In this document: piece after piece, positions 4,089 to 12,390 of the stretch | Layout of the letters: the number at the start of each line of letters is the position of its first letter | Position numbering within the stretch: position 1 is the first letter of the stretch | IMG/VR virus record: IMGVR_UViG_3300020174_000058 | Coordinates: 1 to 26,420 of that record | Length of the DNA stretch: 26,420 nucleotides | Direction: 5' to 3' (one strand) | Source: a virus | Translations under genes and position numbers: made by a program | Notes under the pieces: model-generated | What the model was told of the DNA's origin: nothing | The model's database searches: none | What the model saw: the letters and a program-made list of their open reading frames with translations, nothing else

Positions 4089-4556
4089 ATGTTAAGTTTT
4101 AGATTATTTTTTATTGGACTACTCATCAGCGCCGTCATAGGCGCTGGTGCTTATGTTATGAAGTTACAAAGAGATAACATTATTCTAAAAGAAAACGCAG
4201 TTAAATTAGAATCTGCCATATCAGAACAGAAACAAGTTATTGAAAATCAAAAGAAAGACTTTGCTGAAATATTAGAAGCAAATAAAAAGATAAATGAATT
4301 AGTCAATAATCTCAAAAAAGACTTAGATGATTTAGATAAAAGATTTAATAAGAAAGAAAGAGATATTGGTAAACTGGCCATTGAAAGAACAAAGGTCATA
4401 GAAAGAATTATAAACAAAGGTAGTGAAAACGCTAAAAGATGTATTGAAATCGCTAGTGGTTCACCATTAACGGAAGAAGAAAAGAATGCTACAAAGAAGT
4501 CAGAAATCAATCCTGAATGTCCTAGTATTGCTAATCCTAAGTATATTCCTTACTAA
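4089..4556 (+). CDS. Inner-membrane spanin (Rz-like)
   Basis: A 155-residue protein with one N-terminal transmembrane helix (about 5-23) and a long periplasmic coiled coil (about 27-115), the topology of Rz i-spanins. Two cysteines in the C-terminal part could form disulfides. The out-of-frame overlap with a following lipoprotein gene (71 bases) is the classic Rz/Rz1 arrangement, and this, not sequence identity, is the main evidence. Role: together with the o-spanin it would span the periplasm and fuse inner and outer membranes at lysis. Confidence 0.75.
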   Translation: MLSFRLFFIGLLISAVIGAGAYVMKLQRDNIILKENAVKLESAISEQKQVIENQKKDFAEILEANKKINELVNNLKKDLDDLDKRFNKKERDIGKLAIERTKVIERIINKGSENAKRCIEIASGSPLTEEEKNATKKSEINPECPSIANPKYIPY

Positions 4557-4869
4557 CTGCTCAGGTGTTAAGAAGTTAAGTATATTTAAAGAAGAAGTCA
4601 AAAGACAGGAACTAAATTTAGAGAAACCTACACCTCTACAATTAGAACAAATTAAGTGGATTATTATTACATCTGAAAACGCTGATGAAGTATTTAAAAA
4701 GATGGAAGAACAAGGCCTTGATCCTGTCTTATTTGGCCTTACAGATAATGACTATCAATTGATAGCAAAAAACTTTGCTCAAATAAGAAATCAATTAAAA
4801 ATTACAAACGATATACTTGACAAGTATAAAAAATACTACGAAGGAGATAATGATGGCGAAACTAGGTGA
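4486..4869 (+). CDS. Outer-membrane lipoprotein spanin (Rz1-like) with extra C-terminal domain
   Basis: A 127-residue lipoprotein whose gene starts inside the i-spanin gene in another frame. The signal peptide (about 1-24) ends in LTNC, with Cys25 as the lipidated residue. After about residue 50 comes a domain I recognise from other phages at this position: a WIIITSENADEVF segment, then PVLFGLTDNDYQLIAKNFAQIR and a final DILDKYKKYYE helix. Classical Rz1 proteins are short and proline-rich, so this one is longer than usual. It probably binds the i-spanin tip and the outer membrane. The end overlaps the nuclease gene by 17 bases. Confidence 0.7.
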   Translation: MLQRSQKSILNVLVLLILSIFLTNCSGVKKLSIFKEEVKRQELNLEKPTPLQLEQIKWIIITSENADEVFKKMEEQGLDPVLFGLTDNDYQLIAKNFAQIRNQLKITNDILDKYKKYYEGDNDGETR

Positions 4870-5272
4870 TAAAACTGACTTTAGTTATAGAGTAAAAAGA
4901 GTTACAAAAGTTGTAGATGGAGATACAATAGATGTTATATTAGATATGGGGTTTGACATTTTGTTTGCTCAAAGAGTTAGACTATTTGGTATAGACACAC
5001 CAGAAAGTAGAACAAGAGATAAAGTAGAAAAAATTTATGGTTTAAAGTCTAAAAAGTTTTTACAAGAAAAATTAAAAAAAGCAAAAAAGATTACAATTAA
5101 AACATACAAAAATTCAGAAACAGGTAAGTTTGGTAGAATACTTGGAGATGTATGGTGTGATGGCAAATCTGTTAATTCAGAAATGGTTAAAGTAGGTCAC
5201 GCTGTTGCTTACTATGGTCAAAACAAAAAACTTGTTGAAGCAGCTCATTTAAGAAATAGAAAAAGAGTATAA
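4853..5272 (+). CDS. Staphylococcal-nuclease-like (thermonuclease) endonuclease
   Basis: The start at 4853 is preferred because AAGGAG lies 6 bases upstream; the product has 139 residues. It shows the full SNase signature: VVDGDTIDV (about 20-28, metal-binding Asp), RVRLFGIDTPES (about 41-52, equivalents of Arg35, Asp40, Thr41 and Glu43 of staphylococcal nuclease) and GRILGDV with the Arg87 equivalent at about 95. It lacks a signal peptide, so it should act in the cytoplasm, for instance on host DNA. It sits between the spanins and two membrane proteins with 1-base and 17-base overlaps, so it is co-expressed with the lysis block. Confidence 0.88.
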   Translation: MAKLGDKTDFSYRVKRVTKVVDGDTIDVILDMGFDILFAQRVRLFGIDTPESRTRDKVEKIYGLKSKKFLQEKLKKAKKITIKTYKNSETGKFGRILGDVWCDGKSVNSEMVKVGHAVAYYGQNKKLVEAAHLRNRKRV

Positions 5273-5547
5273 TGTTTTTTGATATACTAACACAATTTGG
5301 ATTACCAGTTGCGGCCGCTGTCACAATGGGTGTATTCATTTATATTATTTTAAAATATATTTTAGCAGGTGTAGTTGGTTCAGTCAAAGGTTTACACGGT
5401 ATTATTATGGGTTTAGAAAATAGAATTGAAACAATGAACAATGATTTAATACACATTGATACTTTAATTTCACACTCATTACACTTAAAACCAGATTTAG
5501 ATAGAATAGCAAGAGCTGACGGTAAAAAAGACGCTAGACGAGATTAA
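5272..5547 (+). CDS. Small membrane protein with C-terminal coiled coil (paralog A)
   Basis: A 91-residue protein starting on a TAATG junction with the nuclease gene. One transmembrane helix (about 10-35) after an ILTQFGLP start, then a charged helix with NRIETMNNDLIHID (about 50-63) and a basic tail. It is clearly paralogous to the next gene, which has the same layout and matching residues (ILNQYG; DNDLIRI). Topology is compatible with a holin or a lysis regulator but also with other phage membrane proteins. No known family named with confidence. Confidence 0.65.
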   Translation: MFFDILTQFGLPVAAAVTMGVFIYIILKYILAGVVGSVKGLHGIIMGLENRIETMNNDLIHIDTLISHSLHLKPDLDRIARADGKKDARRD

Positions 5548-5798
5548 TGACTGTATTAGAAATATTAAATCAATATGGATTTGCTACCTTGGCCGCTATT
5601 GGTATGGGCTGGTTTATATTTTTTATCTATACCTATATCACACAAGAAGTTACAAGTAAACTAGGTGAAGCAAATAAAGCCTTAATTGCTCTTTTAGACA
5701 AGATAAGAAGATTAGATAATGATTTGATTAGAATTAAATCTAAATTGAACACTATTTTGACATTAAGAGAAGAACAAGATAAGAAAAACAAAGACTAA
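5547..5798 (+). CDS. Small membrane protein with C-terminal coiled coil (paralog B)
   Basis: An 83-residue protein overlapping paralog A by one base (TAATG). Residues 3-8 (LEILNQYG) and one transmembrane segment (about 12-33) are followed by a coiled coil with KIRRLDNDLIRIKSKL (about 51-66). Compared with paralog A the membrane helix is more aromatic and the tail shorter. The tandem duplication suggests a hetero-oligomeric pair. The gene ends just before the late promoter of the curli operon. Confidence 0.65.
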   Translation: MTVLEILNQYGFATLAAIGMGWFIFFIYTYITQEVTSKLGEANKALIALLDKIRRLDNDLIRIKSKLNTILTLREEQDKKNKD

Positions 5799-5802
5799 TT
5801 CT

Positions 5803-5810
5803 TATAAATA
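5803..5810 (+). promoter_or_regulatory. T4-type late promoter of the curli/cyclase operon
   Basis: An exact TATAAATA box, the T4 late promoter consensus read by the gp55 sigma factor. In T4 the start of transcription lies 6 bases past the box, here at 5816, which is the A of the csgF start codon. No ribosome site precedes that ATG, so the transcript would be leaderless. It is one of only two exact boxes I found on this strand. Confidence 0.65.
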
Positions 5811-5815
5811 GTAGT

Positions 5816-6274
5816 ATGAAAACACTTATAAAATATAGTGTTTTCTTTGGACTTTTACTATTATCCACATCATTACAGTCAAGTGAATTGACACAAGAAT
5901 TTAAGAACCCATCCTTTAGTGGAAATGGTTACTCAAATCACGTGTTATCAATACAACAACTTGAACACCAAAGAGAGCAAAAGATAAAAGAAGACAAAGA
6001 AGCCGCTGAAAGGCAGGCTAAACGTGACGAAGACAATAAGACAATCAATCGTTTTATTGCTAACGTTGAAAGTAGAATTTACGCTAACATATCAAAACAA
6101 TTAGTTGACAATATGTTTAGTGATACTGGACAAACATCTGGTACGGCTGAGATAGAGGGTGCTACAATTGTTTGGAATAAAGATAGTGACTTAGGTACGA
6201 TTGCTATTACCATAACGGAAGCTGACGGCACCATAACAACATTAACAGTACCGATTGGAGATTTCGGTTTCTAA
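5816..6274 (+). CDS. csgF: Curli assembly protein CsgF
   Basis: A 152-residue protein with a signal peptide (about 1-22). The mature N-terminus has the CsgF hallmark F-x-NP-x-F-x-GN (QEFKNPSFSGNGYSNHVL, about 27-44) followed by a Q-rich helix, closely like E. coli CsgF, whose N-terminal peptide plugs into the CsgG channel. The middle (about 48-100) is a longer charged helix than in E. coli. The C-terminal beta part (about 108-152) is typical. Role: caps the CsgG pore at the cell surface and hands curlin subunits to the growing fibre. It overlaps csgG by one base, the usual coupling of these partners. Confidence 0.9.
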   Translation: MKTLIKYSVFFGLLLLSTSLQSSELTQEFKNPSFSGNGYSNHVLSIQQLEHQREQKIKEDKEAAERQAKRDEDNKTINRFIANVESRIYANISKQLVDNMFSDTGQTSGTAEIEGATIVWNKDSDLGTIAITITEADGTITTLTVPIGDFGF

Positions 6275-7071
6275 TGTTAAAATTTTTAACGGTGGCGTTA
6301 ATAGCTGTTTTCTTAAACGGTTGTGCTACTGTACCAAAATATGAAGACCCTAAACTGTCTATCTCTCCTTTACAAAAGAAGTTTAAAGAGATAAAACCTT
6401 TAGATGGTCCACAGATTACAATTGCTGTCTATTCATTTTCAGATAAGACAGGTCAAAGAAAACCAAGTCAAAAGTTTTCTCAATTAAGTTCAGCAGTTAC
6501 ACAAGGTGCTGAAGTTTGGGTGATACAGGCATTACAAGAAGTTGGTAATAGTAGTTGGTTTAAAGTAGTAGAAAGAATTGGATTAGATAATCTAATCAAA
6601 GAACGACAGTTAATTCGTTCTACCAGAGAACAATACGAAGAAGAAAAAAATAAAAGATTAAAACCTTTATTGTTTGCTGGTTTAATTGTTGAGGGTGCTG
6701 TAGTTGGTTATGATTCAAATGTAGCAACTGGCGGTGCTGGTGCTAGATATTTGGGAATAGGATTACAAACTCAATATAGAGTAGATAATGTAACTGTTTC
6801 AATGAGAGTAGTAAGTGTATCCACAGGAGAAGTATTACTTTCAGTAGCAGTTGAAAAACAAATTTTATCAGTTTCTCAAGGCGGTGATGTGTTTAAGTTT
6901 TTAGATATGGGTACAAGAGCAGTAGAGATTGAATCAGGAACAACGGTAAATGAACCTGTTAATTATGCTGTAAGAGCAGCAATAGAACAGGCCGTAGTCG
7001 AAATGATATTAAAAGGTGAAGCAAAAAACCTTTGGAAGTTTAAACAAGGAGATAAAGTAAATGTTAAATAA
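6274..7071 (+). CDS. csgG: Curli secretion pore lipoprotein CsgG
   Basis: A 265-residue lipoprotein with lipobox FLNGC (Cys17). Conserved CsgG blocks are all visible: AVYSFSDKTGQRKP (about 51-64), FKVVERIGLDNLIKERQLIRS (about 96-116), VVGYDSNVATGGAGARYLGIG (about 143-163, transmembrane hairpin region), VVSVSTGEVLLS (about 179-190) and the NEPVN...AIEQAV stretch (about 226-241). It would form the nonameric outer-membrane channel that exports unfolded curlins. The constriction loop after GQRKP differs from E. coli (no Tyr/Asn at the expected places). Start coupled to csgF by TAATG. Full length with no frameshift. Confidence 0.95.
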   Translation: MLKFLTVALIAVFLNGCATVPKYEDPKLSISPLQKKFKEIKPLDGPQITIAVYSFSDKTGQRKPSQKFSQLSSAVTQGAEVWVIQALQEVGNSSWFKVVERIGLDNLIKERQLIRSTREQYEEEKNKRLKPLLFAGLIVEGAVVGYDSNVATGGAGARYLGIGLQTQYRVDNVTVSMRVVSVSTGEVLLSVAVEKQILSVSQGGDVFKFLDMGTRAVEIESGTTVNEPVNYAVRAAIEQAVVEMILKGEAKNLWKFKQGDKVNVK

Positions 7072-7774
7072 ACTAACAATTATATTATTTACATTATTGT
7101 TTGGTGTTAACGTTTATGCTAATGATATTTATATAGACCAAGTTGGTGATAGCTTAGATTTAGATATAGTGCAAGATGGTCAAAACAACAAAATTGGTAC
7201 ATCTTTAGTTGACGCTGATTTTGATGGTGATAATATGACGTTTAGTATTACTCAAACAGGTAACACTAACGAAATCACAGCAGACATACAAGGAAATACA
7301 TACACTGGTACTTGGGCGTTTACAGGTAACTCAAACACAGTTGACTTACTTTGTGATAGTTCAGCAAACGGAAATTGTGAAACTGTAACTTTAAATATCA
7401 CAACAACAGGTGATAGTAACGCTTACACAATTAACATTGGTGAAACTGGTGATGCTGAAAATGCTACAATTGCTTTTACAGTAACAGGTGATAATTCAGT
7501 TATCAACACAGATGTAGATGGTACAAATTCAGACATTACTGTAACAATGAATAACTCCGCTTCATTAGCAACAACAAGTGCTAATTCAGATGAGGGTAAC
7601 CAACTAGACTTAACTCAAACTGGAAACGGTGATAGTTTAGGTCATAGTATTACTTTAAACATCACAGGCGGTGGTAGTACATACACAGTAACACAATCTG
7701 GTATCTATGATAATAAAGTTGACGCTACATTTAATGGTGATAGCCAAGACGTAGATATTACACAATCTGATTAA
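7061..7774 (+). CDS. Secreted curlin-repeat (CsgA/CsgB-like) protein
   Basis: A 237-residue protein with AAGGAG before the start and an 11-base overlap with csgG. Signal peptide about 1-20 (VYA|ND). The mature chain is Asn/Asp/Thr/Gly-rich and has repeated strand-turn units of the curlin type: IYIDQVGDSLDLDIVQDG (about 23-40), FSITQTGNTNEI (about 61-72), LDLTQTGNGDSLGHSI (about 182-197), YTVTQSGIYDNKV (about 208-220) and a final VDITQSD. Several middle units lack the Gln. One Cys pair (98 and 106). It is the natural substrate of the adjacent CsgG pore, either the main fibre subunit or a minor one. Not assigned csgA or csgB because the repeats are degenerate. Confidence 0.85.
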   Translation: MLNKLTIILFTLLFGVNVYANDIYIDQVGDSLDLDIVQDGQNNKIGTSLVDADFDGDNMTFSITQTGNTNEITADIQGNTYTGTWAFTGNSNTVDLLCDSSANGNCETVTLNITTTGDSNAYTINIGETGDAENATIAFTVTGDNSVINTDVDGTNSDITVTMNNSASLATTSANSDEGNQLDLTQTGNGDSLGHSITLNITGGGSTYTVTQSGIYDNKVDATFNGDSQDVDITQSD

Positions 7775-7831
7775 CGATAAAAATGGACTTTGGAACAATA
7801 AACTTATTATTAATTATAGGGATATTAGTAT

Positions 7832-8932
7832 ATGCGAATATTGAGTTTTATAATTTTATTGATAATAACTTCTAACACTGCTTTTGCCAATATTGGTAAA
7901 GTAAGTGAACATAAAGGTTCAGGCCTTATCAAAAGGACAACTGGCGATAAGGTTGAAACCAATTTAGAAACTGATGTGTTTTCAATGGACGAAGTTTCTA
8001 CTGGACAAGGTAGAACAGGTATTACGTTTGTTGATGATACTAAAGTTGAATTGACTGAACACTCCAAATTAGTCATTGATGAATTTGTTTACGACCCCAA
8101 TACAAACACAGGTGCTTTAAGTTTAAAAGCAAGTTTAGGAAGTGTTCGTTATGCGAGTGGTCAAATAGCAAAGAACAGTAAGCAGAATGTAAAAATATCC
8201 ACACCAACTGCCACAATTGCTGTTAGAGGTACAGACTTTGCTATGATTATAGATGAGTTAGGTGGTTCTACAATCTTATTGTTACCAAGTTGTGATACAA
8301 CAGGACTATGTTATGTAGGAGAAATTGAAGTTATATCAGACGCAGGCCAAGTGATTATGAATCAGGCCTTTCAAGCTACAAGAGTAGAGGCGCCTGAAAG
8401 TAAACCATTTAAACCTATCTTGGTTGATGTAAATGAAAGTATGATTTCTAATCTTCTCATTTTATCTCCACCTAAAAATTTAAATACTGAAGAAAATGCT
8501 AATGAAAGAAAAGCAGTTGCTGATGTTTTAGATATAGACTTTTTAGAAATAGATATTTTAAATGAAGATTTACTATCAACAAAAGATGATGATAACTTTG
8601 AAGAATTAGATGTTGATTATTTGGCACAAGACTTTTTATCTGATGTATTAGACGCTATCAATAAAGTATTAGCAGAAAGTTTTTTAAGTCAGTTGACAGA
8701 TGTATTTGTTAAGAAGAAACAAAAGACAGGACAAGATACAGAAACAGGTATTATTATAATTGACAATGGAACATTTTGGGAGTTTAGACGAGAAGACACT
8801 AACAATTTTGTTAGATTACGATTAAGTAAATCAAGTGAGTATATTATCAATTTAACACAAGGTGATTTTGTAACAAGAGATTACATAATAGGAGATGGTA
8901 GTTTAAACAATATAGACATCTATCAAAAATAA
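7832..8932 (+). CDS. Exported FecR-domain protein with curlin-like C-terminus
   Basis: A 366-residue protein with signal peptide about 1-19 (AFA|NI). Residues about 48-140 form a FecR domain: VFSMDEVSTGQGRTGITFVDDTKVEL..., LSLKASLGSVRYASG and a closing STPTATIAVRGTDF, the hallmark of this family. About 150-160 contains a Cys pair (SCDTTGLC). About 228-290 is an acidic linker with repeated DVLDIDFL-like units. The last 60 residues have strand-turn units with INLTQGDF and NIDIYQK, reminiscent of curlin repeats. FecR domains of this stand-alone type accompany CHASE2 cyclases in cellular genomes (from memory). It may sense or nucleate fibre material in the periplasm or at the surface; inference. 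Confidence 0.8.
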   Translation: MRILSFIILLIITSNTAFANIGKVSEHKGSGLIKRTTGDKVETNLETDVFSMDEVSTGQGRTGITFVDDTKVELTEHSKLVIDEFVYDPNTNTGALSLKASLGSVRYASGQIAKNSKQNVKISTPTATIAVRGTDFAMIIDELGGSTILLLPSCDTTGLCYVGEIEVISDAGQVIMNQAFQATRVEAPESKPFKPILVDVNESMISNLLILSPPKNLNTEENANERKAVADVLDIDFLEIDILNEDLLSTKDDDNFEELDVDYLAQDFLSDVLDAINKVLAESFLSQLTDVFVKKKQKTGQDTETGIIIIDNGTFWEFRREDTNNFVRLRLSKSSEYIINLTQGDFVTRDYIIGDGSLNNIDIYQK

Positions 8933-8933
8933 T

Positions 8934-10226
8934 ATGTTTTATAAAATTTTAAAAAAGTTTGTTATCTATTTGTTTATCTGGATGGTATTCTTTTCTATAG
9001 TAGATAAAGTAAAAGCAGATTTATATTACGACACTTACGCTGGTACAGGTGCCACGCCAAGTTTTCCAGGTAATGGTGGTAGTTTAACATATCCCACAAA
9101 ATTAAGTTCAGGTACAATATCAAGTATAGATTACAATTGGGGAAGTGGTTATGTATTAGACTCTGGTAGAAACGAAAGGGTTATTGTACATATGTATGGT
9201 TACATCACCATACCAGACACAGGTTCACAGGACATACAGTTCTATCTATATGCTGATGATGGTGTGTATATGAAATTAGATGATACAGTTGTCATTAACG
9301 ATTGGCAAGAGCAAGGTGCTGGTACTTGGAACTATGTTTCAACAGACCAAACACTCACAGGTGGACAAACTTATTATATTGATATGTGGTGGTATGAAAA
9401 CGGTGGAGGTGCCGCCGTTAAGTTATATTGGGACCAAACAGGTTCAGTTGCGATTGTTCCTGCTTCAACATATTCTTTAACAGAACCAACACCTACTTCA
9501 GCTGCTACTTCAACACAAACAAGTTTAAGAACAACAACAAGAAATATTACCAATTCAGGTAATGCTATTTACATTGACCAAGCTGGAACTAATTTAGATT
9601 TAGATGTAGTACAAGACGGTGACGATAATTTAATTGCTGGTACAAGTACAACATCAAGTACAATAACAGACGCTAACATAAGTGGTGATTACAATACAGT
9701 AAATCTATCACAAAAGAGTGATAACAATGTTTTACTATTTGGTGTAAATGGTGACCATAATGATTTAACGGTATCACAAGGCGACAATGTAAATGACACA
9801 GGTGGTCATAGAGCAATTGTAGATGTAACAGGTAATTATAATAGTACATCATTGACACAATACGACACAGGTTTTGGTTCAGGTCAATTCGCTGACATAA
9901 ATATTTCTGGTAATGATAATACAATTACATCAACACAAAGAGAAACCGACAAAATGTTATTCATAGATGTCAACGGTTCTGATAATACTATAACAACTGA
10001 CCAAAAAGATTCAGGTCAACATTTTTTAGATATTACTGTAGGTTCAAATCAAACTGTAAGTGTAACTCAACAAGGTACAGGTGACCACGCTGCTACTATT
10101 GATATGGGTGGTTATTCAGCTGGACTTTCACTAGACCAAAATTCATCAACTGACCAAAATTATGTATTAGAACAAACTTGTGCTAATGTATCTGGTTGTG
10201 GTACAACAAGCGTAACTCAAAATTAA
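8934..10226 (+). CDS. PA14-domain/curlin-repeat fusion, secreted
   Basis: A 430-residue protein, one base after the FecR gene. Signal peptide about 1-28 (KVKA|DL). Residues about 30-180 are a PA14-type domain: YGYITIPDTGSQDIQFYLYA, DDGVYMKLDDTVVINDW (about 108-124) and YYIDMWWYENGGGAAVKLYW (about 147-166), the beta-barrel with DDG motif found in glycan-binding adhesins and glycosidases. A Thr/Ser linker (about 182-208) joins it to about 220 residues of curlin-like repeats from residue 211 (IYIDQAGTNLDLDVVQDG) to the end (TSVTQN), with at least eight units ending in Q. The first unit is nearly identical to that of the 7061 protein. A Cys pair lies at 416 and 422. Inferred: a fibre-borne adhesin exported by CsgG. 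Confidence 0.85.
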   Translation: MFYKILKKFVIYLFIWMVFFSIVDKVKADLYYDTYAGTGATPSFPGNGGSLTYPTKLSSGTISSIDYNWGSGYVLDSGRNERVIVHMYGYITIPDTGSQDIQFYLYADDGVYMKLDDTVVINDWQEQGAGTWNYVSTDQTLTGGQTYYIDMWWYENGGGAAVKLYWDQTGSVAIVPASTYSLTEPTPTSAATSTQTSLRTTTRNITNSGNAIYIDQAGTNLDLDVVQDGDDNLIAGTSTTSSTITDANISGDYNTVNLSQKSDNNVLLFGVNGDHNDLTVSQGDNVNDTGGHRAIVDVTGNYNSTSLTQYDTGFGSGQFADINISGNDNTITSTQRETDKMLFIDVNGSDNTITTDQKDSGQHFLDITVGSNQTVSVTQQGTGDHAATIDMGGYSAGLSLDQNSSTDQNYVLEQTCANVSGCGTTSVTQN

Positions 10227-12151
10227 TGAAGAAAATATTAACACATTGGACAATAGCATTTGTAACATTATTTGTTATTACATTTATAGGTTTAAAAGAC
10301 CCACAAGTTAAAGAGATATTAAGACTAAAAGGTTTTGATTTATTATTACAATCAGAACCAAAAGAAATTTCACAAGACATACACGTTGTAAGTATAGATG
10401 AAAAGGCCATAGAGAAGTATGGACAATGGCCTTGGAAAAGAGATGTACTTGCTGATGTAGTAAATCAATTAAGAGAAAAAGGTGCTGGTATTATAGTCAT
10501 ACCTATACTGTTTTCAGAATATGATAGACTAGGTGGTGATGAAGATTTTATTAATACAATCTATCAAAATGGTGTAGTTATAGCACAAACAGGAACAAAT
10601 CAAATTAATAAGAATGCTGTACCAAGAGGTGTTGCTAAAATAGGTGACCCACTACCTTGGTTATTTGAATGGGGAGGAATGTTAGGTCCTGTTAAAGAGT
10701 TTGGTGAATACGCTGATGGTGTGGGTGTGACAAACACAGCACCTGAAGTAGATGGTGTTGTAAGAAGAATACCATTGTTAATGAGAATAGGTGATGAGAT
10801 ATACCCAGCAATGGCAATAGAAGTAATAAGAGTTGCTACAGGCGCACCTAGTTATCAAGTTAAAACAGGTGAAGGTGGTATTATCGCTATGAGAGTACCT
10901 GGTTTTGATACAATAGAAACAGACGCTAATGCTCGTATCTGGTTAAGATGGAACAAAGAATATGTAACTACATCTATTGCTGATTTAGAAACAACTGAAG
11001 TTAAATTTAATAATAAAACAGTTATTATAGGAATGAATGCTGAAGGACTTGGTGGAATAATTGCGACACCAGTTGGAGAAAGATATGCTTACGAGTTAAC
11101 TGCTTCAACACTATCAACTGTATTAGATGGTAAGAATATTACAAGAGTTGATATAAGTTTTATATCTGAATTAGGAGTATCATTTATATTAGGTCTTGCG
11201 TTAATTCTTATTACAAGATTTATGCCTTATTGGGTGATAGGTTTAAAACTATTATCTTGGTATATAATTGCTGTTTATTTAAGTCATTATTTCTTTACAA
11301 AACATTTAATGCTTGTAGATGTAAGTTGGATTATTATAACAATTACAATTGTAGGATTTCATAGTGTCTTTAATAGATTTATTTTAGAGTTTAAATTAAA
11401 ACAACAAATACGAAAACAGTTTGAGAAGTATTTGGATCCAAGACAAGTTGCTATACTTGTAAAGAATCCTGAAAAGTTAAAACTTGGTGGTGATAGAAAA
11501 GAAATGTCTTTCTTGTTTATGGACATTGTAGGCTTTACTCCTATTTCTGAATACTATAAAAACAAAGATGATCCTGAAGGACTAGTTGCTGTAATCAATG
11601 ATTATCTAAATCGTATGAGTCAAATTGTTTTAAGAAATGGTGGTACGATTGACAAGTATATGGGTGATTGTATTATGGCATTTTGGAACGCACCATTAGA
11701 TTGTCCTAATCACGCCGAGATGGCTGTAAAGACAGGTATAGAATGTGCTGAAGAAACTGAAAAGTTAAAAAAAGAATTTAGGGAGAAAGGTCTTCCTGAT
11801 ATAAACATAGGTTCAGGTGTAAACACAGGAACTTGTATTGTAGGTAATATGGGTAGTGAAAACCGATTAGATTATTCTGTTGTAGGTGACGCTGTAAACT
11901 TGGCAGCTAGACTTGAAGCTGCTACAAGAAATTATAAAGATGAAAATGGAAAGGTTACACCTTTGATTTATTCTTCTTATACAAAAGAGCAACTCAAAAA
12001 TATTAAGTCAATAGAGTTAGATAAAATTAAGGTTAAGGGTAAAGATGAGTTAGTAACCATTTATAAACCAGTAACAAACTTAATGGAGAACTATGACCTT
12101 ACTTCAAAAAAGAAAGTTAAGACTAATAGCAAAAAGGATAATAAGAAATGA
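10226..12151 (+). CDS. CHASE2-domain membrane adenylate/guanylate cyclase (class III)
   Basis: A 641-residue protein starting on a TAATG junction with the PA14-curlin gene. One N-terminal transmembrane helix (about 8-22), a periplasmic CHASE2 sensor (about 30-300, with FDLLL, VVSIDEKAIEKYGQWPW and ILFSEYDR), three transmembrane helices (about 312-330, 335-355, 360-380) and a class III catalytic domain (about 425-615). Catalytic residues are intact: Asp433 in FMDIVGFT and Asp481 in DKYMGDCIMAFW for metals, Lys477 as the likely purine-selecting Lys, and Asn558/Arg562 in GDAVNLAARLE for the transition state. Ser551 at the second selector position fits class IIIb. Predicted product cAMP; cGMP not excluded. 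Very unusual for a phage. Confidence 0.92.
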   Translation: MKKILTHWTIAFVTLFVITFIGLKDPQVKEILRLKGFDLLLQSEPKEISQDIHVVSIDEKAIEKYGQWPWKRDVLADVVNQLREKGAGIIVIPILFSEYDRLGGDEDFINTIYQNGVVIAQTGTNQINKNAVPRGVAKIGDPLPWLFEWGGMLGPVKEFGEYADGVGVTNTAPEVDGVVRRIPLLMRIGDEIYPAMAIEVIRVATGAPSYQVKTGEGGIIAMRVPGFDTIETDANARIWLRWNKEYVTTSIADLETTEVKFNNKTVIIGMNAEGLGGIIATPVGERYAYELTASTLSTVLDGKNITRVDISFISELGVSFILGLALILITRFMPYWVIGLKLLSWYIIAVYLSHYFFTKHLMLVDVSWIIITITIVGFHSVFNRFILEFKLKQQIRKQFEKYLDPRQVAILVKNPEKLKLGGDRKEMSFLFMDIVGFTPISEYYKNKDDPEGLVAVINDYLNRMSQIVLRNGGTIDKYMGDCIMAFWNAPLDCPNHAEMAVKTGIECAEETEKLKKEFREKGLPDINIGSGVNTGTCIVGNMGSENRLDYSVVGDAVNLAARLEAATRNYKDENGKVTPLIYSSYTKEQLKNIKSIELDKIKVKGKDELVTIYKPVTNLMENYDLTSKKKVKTNSKKDNKK

Positions 12152-12309: not shown

Positions 12310-12390
12310 GGAATATTGGTAAGTTAACATAGTACAAAGACTCTATATCGGAGTACGCCCCATAGGGAAACATTAAACTTACACTATTCC
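12310..12390 (+). ncRNA. Structured RNA-like element (three-way-junction fold)
   Basis: An 81-base element closed by two stacked stems: GGAATA (12310-12315) with TATTCC (12385-12390) and GTAAGTT (12319-12325) with AACTTAC (12376-12382). Inside are a hairpin ACTC/GAGT (12340-12343 with 12351-12354) and a small CCC/GGG hairpin (12359-12361 with 12365-12367). It is not a tRNA (no T-loop, no anticodon arm). It lies between the cyclase operon and a late promoter. It could be a 3'-end structure of the operon mRNA, an RNA-processing site or a riboregulator; ligand unknown. Confidence 0.45.

Follow-up and report, generated by a model that had tools for sequence, protein, structure and literature searches.

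The virus record IMGVR_UViG_3300020174_000058 of IMG/VR (positions 1 to 26,420; this 26,420-nt stretch is called the window below) carries a module in which a curli-type exporter and its curlins are joined to a cyclase with a CHASE2 sensor. We read this module, with a probability of about 0.55, as a phage type VIII secretion system (T8SS, curli) unit that would export an amyloid fibre with a variable tip, linked to an envelope sensor and coupled to cyclic AMP (cAMP). The reading builds on features of the sequence, namely a late-promoter operon, an exporter, curlins, an intact cyclase, a near-constant linkage of the genes and a swapped tip. The gene set itself has already been described; the additions made here concern its composition, its origin, its range and its probable working parts.

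Operon organization and late promoter

Six genes, from csgF to the cyclase gene, follow each other in one run (Table 1). The junctions of -1, -11, +57, +1 and -1 bases given in a preliminary description of this DNA were reproduced from the coordinates of the open reading frames (ORFs), and the Pfam matches bear out csgF, csgG, FecR, PA14 with a curlin repeat, and CHASE2 with a cyclase domain. The cyclase start is the ATG at 10226, with an alternative TTG at 10196 in the ORF list.

The window holds the parts by which a curli system is recognized: CsgG with a lipid-anchor cysteine, CsgF and curlin-repeat subunits. The lipobox cysteine was invariant in 12 aligned CsgG proteins, and a lipobox-like stretch was present in 198 of 201 unique ones; an N-terminal motif of the CsgG-binding type (a pattern of our own) was found in 115 of 197 CsgF proteins. 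Curlin 1 of the window (7061-7774) had no Pfam curlin match of its own. In its family, 8 of 15 aligned members, the window protein not among them, matched Curlin_rpt at E<=0.01, and the invariant columns of this alignment (n=15) were mostly the curlin Q-x-G-x-x-N residues. The Q.G..N pattern was counted twice in curlin 1 compared to 0.11 in shuffles, while the count in gene 5 was not above shuffles (1 compared to 0.20). The Escherichia coli curli system, csgBAC-csgDEFG, has CsgG, CsgF and curlin repeats in common with the window; however, only in the window are a cyclase and a FecR gene part of the operon, and a Pfam scan of 16 window ORFs gave zero matches to csgC, csgD and csgE.

The exact TATAAATA box reported earlier ahead of the operon was confirmed 5 nt before the csgF ATG. 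Within the window alone the box was not enriched (4 found compared to 6.5 expected by chance), and we rejected it as a statistical signal at that scale; what counts is its conserved place. Among unique sequences of the fetched viral loci, the box stood at csgF in 68 of 126 and at T1 in 39 of 96, with 0 of 128 at csgG, 0 of 124 at FecR, 0 of 100 at T2, 2 of 135 at curlin and 3 of 120 at the cyclase. The gap between the box end and the csgF ATG was 5 nt in 46 of the 68 box-carrying sequences. Thus TATAAATA is well placed and conserved, as a T4-type late promoter. The spacing of T4 late promoters would place the mRNA start at or near the csgF ATG, and with a box ending 5 nt upstream of this codon the csgF mRNA may therefore be leaderless.

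Table 1. Features of the module in the window, with the evidence for each.
Feature	Position	Strand	Evidence
T1, 91 aa, single-pass membrane protein with coiled coil	5272-5547	+	phrog_18771 E 4.7e-32; topology read from sequence
T2, 83-aa T1 paralogue, one membrane helix plus coiled coil by sequence	5547-5798	+	phrog_18771 E 6.9e-31
TATAAATA, T4-type late promoter box	5803-5810	+	conserved place at csgF
csgF, putative extracellular pore partner	5816-6274	+	Pfam PF10614 1.2e-15
csgG, putative outer-membrane export pore, lipobox LNGC	6274-7071	+	PF03783 2.8e-56
Curlin 1 (putative fibre subunit), start signal-peptide-like	7061-7774	+	family alignment
FecR-domain protein, predicted exported	7832-8932	+	PF04773 1.1e-9, phrog_37870 1.2e-119; FecR domain about 7988-8257
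Curlin-like ladder of strands at the C terminus of the FecR protein	8750-8926	+	model, six short strands at residues 307-365
Gene 5, predicted exported PA14-curlin protein, swappable N-terminal tip	8934-10226	+	PA14 4e-10, Curlin_rpt 6.3e-8
PA14 lectin-type domain with Asp-Asp-Gly calcium motif	9126-9434	+	Foldseek, DDG motif
CHASE2 cyclase	10226-12151	+	CHASE2 (PF05226) 1.1e-41 at 10274-11197; Guanylate_cyc (PF00211) 1.1e-17 at 11498-12058

Linkage, gene order and range of the module

Loci (L numbers; genomes bear G numbers) were collected with the cyclase, T1 or csgG as similarity seeds, the best 80 of about 590-600 confirmed matches being taken for each. Counts were made on unique proteins, and the viral or phage-like loci obtained in this way gave 204 unique csgG genes. 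L051 duplicates phage HTVC008M (L082) and was left out of some lists. Loci L084-L087 and L089 come from bacterial bins and were treated as phage by gene content (L084 and L087 by cyclase similarity alone). The apparent phage contigs L084, L085, L086 and L089 had been binned as Flavobacteriaceae, Pirellulales, Saprospirales and Sphingobacteriales genomes, and such binning therefore calls for caution over claims of gene transfer.

csgF accompanied csgG in 193 of 193 loci whose upstream flank reached 0.8 kb or more, and FecR did so in 153 of 153 whose downstream flank reached 2.5 kb or more. The cyclase was present in 78 of the 80 csgG loci with enough flank (missing from L365 and L419), and T1 or T2 in 63 of 65 well-flanked ones (missing from L027 and L412). 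Taken alone, the most divergent set gave FecR in 64 of 64, the cyclase in 36 of 38 and T1/T2 in 31 of 32 loci. A search of viral contigs for the six-gene order had been proposed as a check, and among the loci that hold csgF, csgG, curlin, FecR and cyclase all on one strand, 126 of 127 had them in this order, contigs of 250 and 340 kb among them; the exception was L387.

The same picture was obtained from the side of T1: csgG was present in every one of the 76 T1 loci whose same-strand sequence extended 2.5 kb or more downstream. Among 50,697 phage records, T1 and T2 occurred in just six, the same six that have a full-length curli-type cyclase; csgG occurred in those six plus one 1.5-kb Salmonella phage record. 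Of 105 loci, 89 had the pair ahead of the module and on its strand, 6 had it interleaved as T2-csgF-T1-csgG, and 9 had it downstream on the opposite strand; in 1 of the 105 the curli genes themselves were on the opposite strand. Since T1/T2 accompany the module in several arrangements, their link to it outlasts rearrangement. The module in phages is thus one of eight genes, not six. The late operon first described, in which the curli exporter, the curlins and an envelope-sensing cyclase are joined, was borne out as a conserved unit, while its six-gene composition had to be extended by T1 and T2 (5272-5798).

When the bacterial form served as the seed of a csgG scan, contigs of up to 339,794 bp turned out to carry the module. 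Two of these contigs, L371 (339,794 bp) and L366 (250,519 bp), are jumbo-sized and have a T4-type gp23, a complete module and long cargo between gene 5 and the cyclase.

An adenylate-type cyclase with a conserved active site

All six residues of class III adenylate cyclases (two metal-binding aspartates, a Lys/Asp pair and an Asn/Arg pair) were present in the window cyclase, with roles as in the general class III scheme. Among aligned cyclases (89 rows, which include L051 and one bacterial cyclase), both metal aspartates and the substrate lysine were found in 89 of 89, and the specificity aspartate and the arginine in 88 of 88. The 160 unique cyclases of viral loci had the metal-Asp motif in 160 cases and K..GD in 158. 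The catalytic part was better conserved than the CHASE2 sensor. A Lys/Asp specificity pair is of the adenylate type, and because the pair is present we read the enzyme as an adenylate cyclase, whose active site is intact as far as its residues tell. The cyclases of L083 and L085 are of the type found in phage Melnitz, with a serine for the transition-state asparagine and a rather different catalytic core.

Gene 5 as an exchanged slot

The slot between FecR and the cyclase held 0 to 6 ORFs across 95 loci. In the first set, Pfam was run on 58 (from 43 loci) of the 72 slot ORFs in 51 loci and found the curlin repeat in 14, PA14 in 4, SoxY in 1 and SoxZ in 1. For 277 pairs of loci with cyclase identity of 80-99%, the median identities were 84 for the cyclase, 83 for FecR and 85 for csgG, compared to 54 for gene 5; gene 5 was less than 40% identical in 82 of the 229 pairs with FecR at least 75% identical. 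These identities were computed over the longer protein for gene 5 and over the local alignment for the other genes, and the pairs are not independent. For example, the window and L050 were 86% identical in T1, 89% in csgF, 82% in csgG, 69% in curlin, 84% in FecR and 92% in the cyclase, while gene 5 was 30% identical over 253 columns. By such comparisons gene 5 is a hypervariable slot, exchanged between close relatives. Besides, L002 and L005 had cyclases 84-92% identical to that of the window, csgG and FecR 55-57% and curlin 38-42% identical; the central block thus seems to recombine separately.

In the model of the window's gene 5 protein (mean pLDDT 72), a PA14-type sandwich precedes a ladder of short strands. 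Foldseek gave a Clostridium anti-sigma factor domain protein as its four top matches, and further matched the model to the sugar-bound PA14 domain of a Marinomonas adhesin (E 4.7e-6) and to lectins of the yeast Flo and Epa type. The Asp-Asp-Gly (DDG) calcium motif was present in 12 of 12 PA14-type tips. The consecutive Asp-Asp calcium motif of PA14 lectins is described in PMC8092209 (this paper and the others are cited from parts of their text), and the Marinomonas primoryensis RTX adhesin lectin and the yeast Flo/Epa flocculins share the fold and the motif with the window protein; in the phage gene 5, however, the lectin is fused to curlin repeats. The modelled tip is accordingly of the PA14 lectin fold with a calcium motif, and is predicted to bind sugar.

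In two loci the slot had a different content. At L080:3745-9617 two ORFs (507 and 1446 aa) are inserted after FecR and before the last small curlin. At L065:1059-1802 lies a SoxY/SoxZ-like slot protein, which was assigned to its ORF from the sequence.

The FecR-domain protein

The FecR protein has a signal-peptide-like start, a FecR domain, a poorly modelled middle and six short strands. PF04773 was found in all 25 aligned members and was the sole convincing Pfam match there. We observed that its last strand is shaped like the last strand of curlins. A looser pattern of this strand was present in 113 of 116 FecR proteins and in 212 of 231 curlin or gene 5 proteins, compared to at most 2 of 107-125 in each of five other families; in the divergent set, 64 of 66 FecR proteins had it. 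A stricter pattern was present in 108 of 116 FecR proteins and in 0 of 29 ordinary FecR-domain proteins, but in only 5 of 66 in the divergent set. Both motifs were written after the alignment was seen and are therefore suggestive only. With a last strand that is curlin-like in 113 of 116 members, the modelled tail suggests that the FecR protein joins the fibre.

Foldseek found nothing at E<=0.001 for the FecR model, the best match being the anti-sigma domain of the iron-signalling protein PupR (E 1.1e-3). The only solved sequence match at E<=1 was 5ix9, an adhesin anchoring domain (E 0.0074), which Foldseek also found (61 columns, root-mean-square deviation 1.1, E 0.033). A FecR of the FecIRA type has an N-terminal cytoplasmic anti-sigma part ahead of a membrane helix. 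Here, the signal-peptide-like start lies at residue 1 and the FecR domain alone was found. We take the protein for an anchor or adaptor of the fibre at the envelope, not for an iron regulator, a question which the fold alone does not decide.

A related pairing is reported for the Burkholderia BiofilmReg operon, a biofilm locus that, according to the part of PMC5192318 consulted, encodes a LysM-FecR protein plus a CHASE2 histidine kinase. As here, an exported FecR-domain protein adjoins a CHASE2 receptor; unlike here, the output is a kinase rather than a cyclase, there is a LysM domain, and curli genes are unmentioned in that part of the paper. The biofilm operon pairs both proteins and thereby backs a partnership of FecR with CHASE2.

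A bacterial operon of similar make-up

The 80 bacterial genome loci fetched with the cyclase were mostly without curli genes nearby, and csgG was absent from 5 of 6 searched genomes having a CHASE2 cyclase. Two Caulobacteraceae genomes (L088/G001 and L213/G422), however, carry a chromosomal run csgF-csgG-curlin-curlin-FecR-cyclase on one strand. The contigs have 55-58% GC and ordinary bacterial neighbours, and T1/T2 were not found in the 20-22 kb stretches read around the operon. The families, the common strand and the last place of the cyclase are the same as in the phage module; the operon differs in that its curlins are adjacent and ahead of FecR, and its cyclase is 40% identical to the phage cyclase.

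Within Caulobacteraceae, 25 of 199 genomes matched the phage FecR profile, the two operon genomes nearly over its full length. A class-wide draw gave 142 matches in 385 genomes; among the matches listed, the starting genome alone was nearly full-length. In a 39-row cyclase tree (midpoint-rooted, with L102 as a long branch), the phage cyclases formed a group (100/99) that joined the Caulobacteraceae pair (99/91) apart from 18 other bacterial cyclases. The phage module is most likely descended from a bacterial csgF-csgG-curlin-FecR-cyclase operon. The abstract of Wittmers et al. 2022 (PMC9599517) states that FecR and the cyclase are not within bacterial T8SS operons, and the two Caulobacteraceae genomes are therefore a counter-example. 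The same paper, in the part consulted, likens the viral order to alphaproteobacterial modules, so the bacterial operon was perhaps partly known to its authors.

Relation to published descriptions

The suggestion that the complete six-gene set might be undescribed did not hold. HTVC008M, cultured on SAR11 (AGE60348-AGE60353), and Melnitz, on OM43 (genes 99-104), carry the whole order csgF-csgG-curlin-FecR-curlin-cyclase; in HTVC008M, FecR and gene 5 bear hypothetical-protein annotations and were recognized in this analysis. That csgG/csgF-like genes are known in pelagimyophages, as stated earlier, is correct: csgF and csgG are reported by Zaragoza-Solas et al. 2020 (PMC7029224). Wittmers et al. 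2022 (PMC9599517) describe the order HK-csgF-csgG-csgA/B-FecR-csgA/B-AC (HK, histidine kinase; AC, adenylate cyclase) in podo- and myovirus pelagiphages, along with transcripts and an ocean-wide distribution of the cluster. Holding cells together and blocking other phages have both been proposed as roles in print.

The window has the published order csgF-csgG-csgA/B-FecR-(csgA/B)-AC, and HTVC008M likewise has a PA14-type gene 5. The difference lies before csgF, where one or two histidine kinases are listed in the pelagiphage cluster and the window has the two small ORFs T1 and T2. Pfam found in them neither a kinase domain nor a holin match at E<=1. By their place, T1/T2 are probably the 'histidine kinase, sometimes two' of Wittmers et al. 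2022.

The text of PMC9599517 is without the terms CHASE2, PA14, lectin, jumbo and promoter; in the parts of PMC7029224 and PMC9599517 consulted, CHASE2 is unnamed and PA14 was not found. No literature was found on phage with CHASE2 and curli, or on pelagiphage with PA14 and curli, in a search that left most subscription papers and preprints outside. Among the papers listed for jumbo phage together with curli, none had a phage curli module as its subject, as judged by titles and the starts of abstracts.

Proposed working of the unit and alternative explanations

As far as the sequence tells, the operon is read from the late promoter, CsgG and CsgF form the exit through the outer membrane, and the two curlin-type proteins and the FecR-domain protein bear signals for export. 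The adenylate cyclase sits in the inner membrane with its CHASE2 sensor in the periplasm. Beyond this we infer fibre formation, the place of FecR in the fibre, FecR-to-CHASE2 signalling, the role of T1/T2 and the ecological benefit, as follows. Curlin 1 would build the fibre, and gene 5 would be an adhesive subunit whose tip varies and is, in the window, a PA14 domain predicted to bind sugar with calcium. The FecR protein may join the fibre base by its curlin-like tail and hold its FecR domain at the envelope, where CHASE2 could sense the state of the fibre or of FecR and set cAMP in the infected cell. T1/T2 would be further parts of the unit and may act at the inner membrane together with the cyclase or with export. 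The phage would likely benefit from the late binding of glycans on neighbouring cells or particles, serving capture of the next host or masking from rival phages. Binding of something outside is favoured because the slot is hypervariable, with a lectin tip here.

A number of observations weigh against this reading. The module is known here from its genes. The transition-state asparagine was present in 86 of 88 cyclases, being a serine in Melnitz and L085, and the exact GD-x-V-N motif was kept in 127 of 160 viral cyclases (149 if serine is allowed). What links FecR to curlin is a short motif at the C terminus together with a model of low confidence (mean pLDDT 61.7). Alignment of the FecR tail to curlin 1 with hhalign was not significant (probability 1.4%), and Pfam found Curlin_rpt in 0 of 25 FecR proteins; we therefore rejected the tail as a proven curlin repeat. 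PA14-type tips were found in just 12 of 95 loci; HTVC008M has one and Melnitz has none. Finally, Buchholz et al. 2022 (PMC9004378) did not see clumping in Melnitz-infected cells, which makes strong aggregation in Melnitz unlikely, Melnitz being without the PA14 tip. On the side of the host, PF00027, taken as the mark of a cAMP receptor, was present in 32 of 32 genomes of the TMED13 (G002) family; the family has just these 32 genomes and is perhaps not mainstream SAR11, and we draw no conclusion.

Wittmers et al. 2022 (PMC9599517) suggested masking of the surface or superinfection exclusion, in which the fibre, instead of capturing anything, would be a coat that stops adsorption of rival phages. 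A late promoter and a surface product agree with it, and a hypervariable tip could reflect an arms race. Still, we consider it rather unlikely: the lectin tip with an intact calcium motif in 12 of 12 PA14-type proteins implies binding and not passive cover, although tips occur in only 12 of 95 loci, and late expression is late for exclusion.

The cyclase could also be an independent host-takeover gene that is merely located in the operon and uncoupled from the fibre. The many bacterial cyclase loci without curli genes nearby (most of the 80), the 5 of 6 genomes without csgG and the better conservation of the catalytic part than of the sensor are what one would cite for it. The linkage to csgG in 78 of 80 loci and the grouping of curli-linked cyclases, phage and Caulobacteraceae alike, apart from other bacterial ones make an uncoupled cyclase unlikely.

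The pinholin-like role of a CsgG pore proposed by Buchholz et al. 2022 (PMC9004378) would turn the module into a lysis control device, in which CsgG, with CsgF, opens or depolarises the envelope late in infection, T1/T2 are holin-like and the curlins are relics. The late promoter is consistent with it, as are the small single-pass membrane proteins T1/T2, which lie shortly after a spanin pair in the clade of the window, and the unclumped Melnitz cells. Relics should decay, yet curlins, FecR and the cyclase are kept in nearly all well-flanked modules. The spanin neighbourhood was seen in 5 loci (the first set alone was searched for spanins), whereas T1/T2 go with the curli genes in 63 of 65. 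Moreover, Buchholz et al. judged csgA/csgB absent, yet the Melnitz record annotates two curlin-repeat genes. On balance, lysis control is quite unlikely.

Very unlikely, in our view, is a contact sensor, in which a lectin-tipped amyloid fibre would grow from the infected cell on a FecR base that is built into the fibre by curlin-like strands. Binding of the tip to another cell would then let FecR alter the CHASE2 cyclase, and cAMP (with T1/T2 at the inner membrane) would tune the end of infection so that progeny are released once new hosts are attached. Uptake of nutrients or siderophores, with CsgG as an import pore and FecR as an iron-citrate regulator, was suggested by Wittmers et al. 2022 (PMC9599517) and has on its side the name of the FecR domain and the Foldseek match to PupR (E 1.1e-3), but it is highly improbable, as the FecR protein starts signal-peptide-like with the FecR domain as the sole convincing Pfam match in 25 members, the adhesin anchoring domain 5ix9 is the one solved structure related to it in sequence at E<=1, and curlins and a lectin tip are superfluous for import.

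The function of the curli genes in pelagiphages has been called a mystery (PMC7029224), in part, we think, because the adhesive part and a fibre-to-signal link went unrecognised. The exported fibre unit coupled to cAMP now has named parts: a predicted sugar-binding tip in an exchanged slot, a FecR protein that resembles a fibre component more than an iron regulator, an intact cyclase and two companion genes. Through the similar bacterial operon, the system might become open to standard genetic work. Should the fibre exist, marine phages that are widespread would alter the surface and the second-messenger state of their hosts late in infection.

Phage context and neighbouring genes

An assembly chimera was considered and rejected, since both junctions of the module are held by L005, L023 and L050, each of which has the stretch from the spanins through the module to DUF7201/primase. 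In L005 this stretch is without the SNase gene, and in L023 T1 stands between csgF and csgG.

The T4-type character of the flanks was upheld in part: phage PHROG matches were found (spanins, primase, ribonucleotide reductase, RuvC-like), while the window itself has no gp23 and would be T4-type by its relatives. No gp23 was found in the 26-kb window, whereas HTVC008M and Melnitz have it. Among module records, 4 of 16 had gp23, two of them longer than 250 kb (250,519 and 339,794 bp); it was absent from module records of 141, 152 and 217 kb, which are possibly fragments or have a gp23 that is too divergent.

Directly upstream of T1/T2 lie a spanin pair (PHROG Rz-like, 4089-4869) and a gene for an SNase-type nuclease (4817-5272). 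Spanins together with T1 were also seen in L005, L012, L023 and L050 of the first locus set.

Between the cyclase and DUF7201, at 12319-12382 (+), lies a candidate RNA element of about 60 nt. It had no Rfam match at E<=5 and a fold z of -1.97, and RNAalifold gave zero pairs on a MAFFT alignment. A fixed motif of the element was found in 24 of 105 regions, the window not among these, compared to 9.9 in shuffles. In relatives, the closing stem, with arms picked by eye, varies in sequence and stays complementary, and a conserved CAATATA-like stretch adjoins it.

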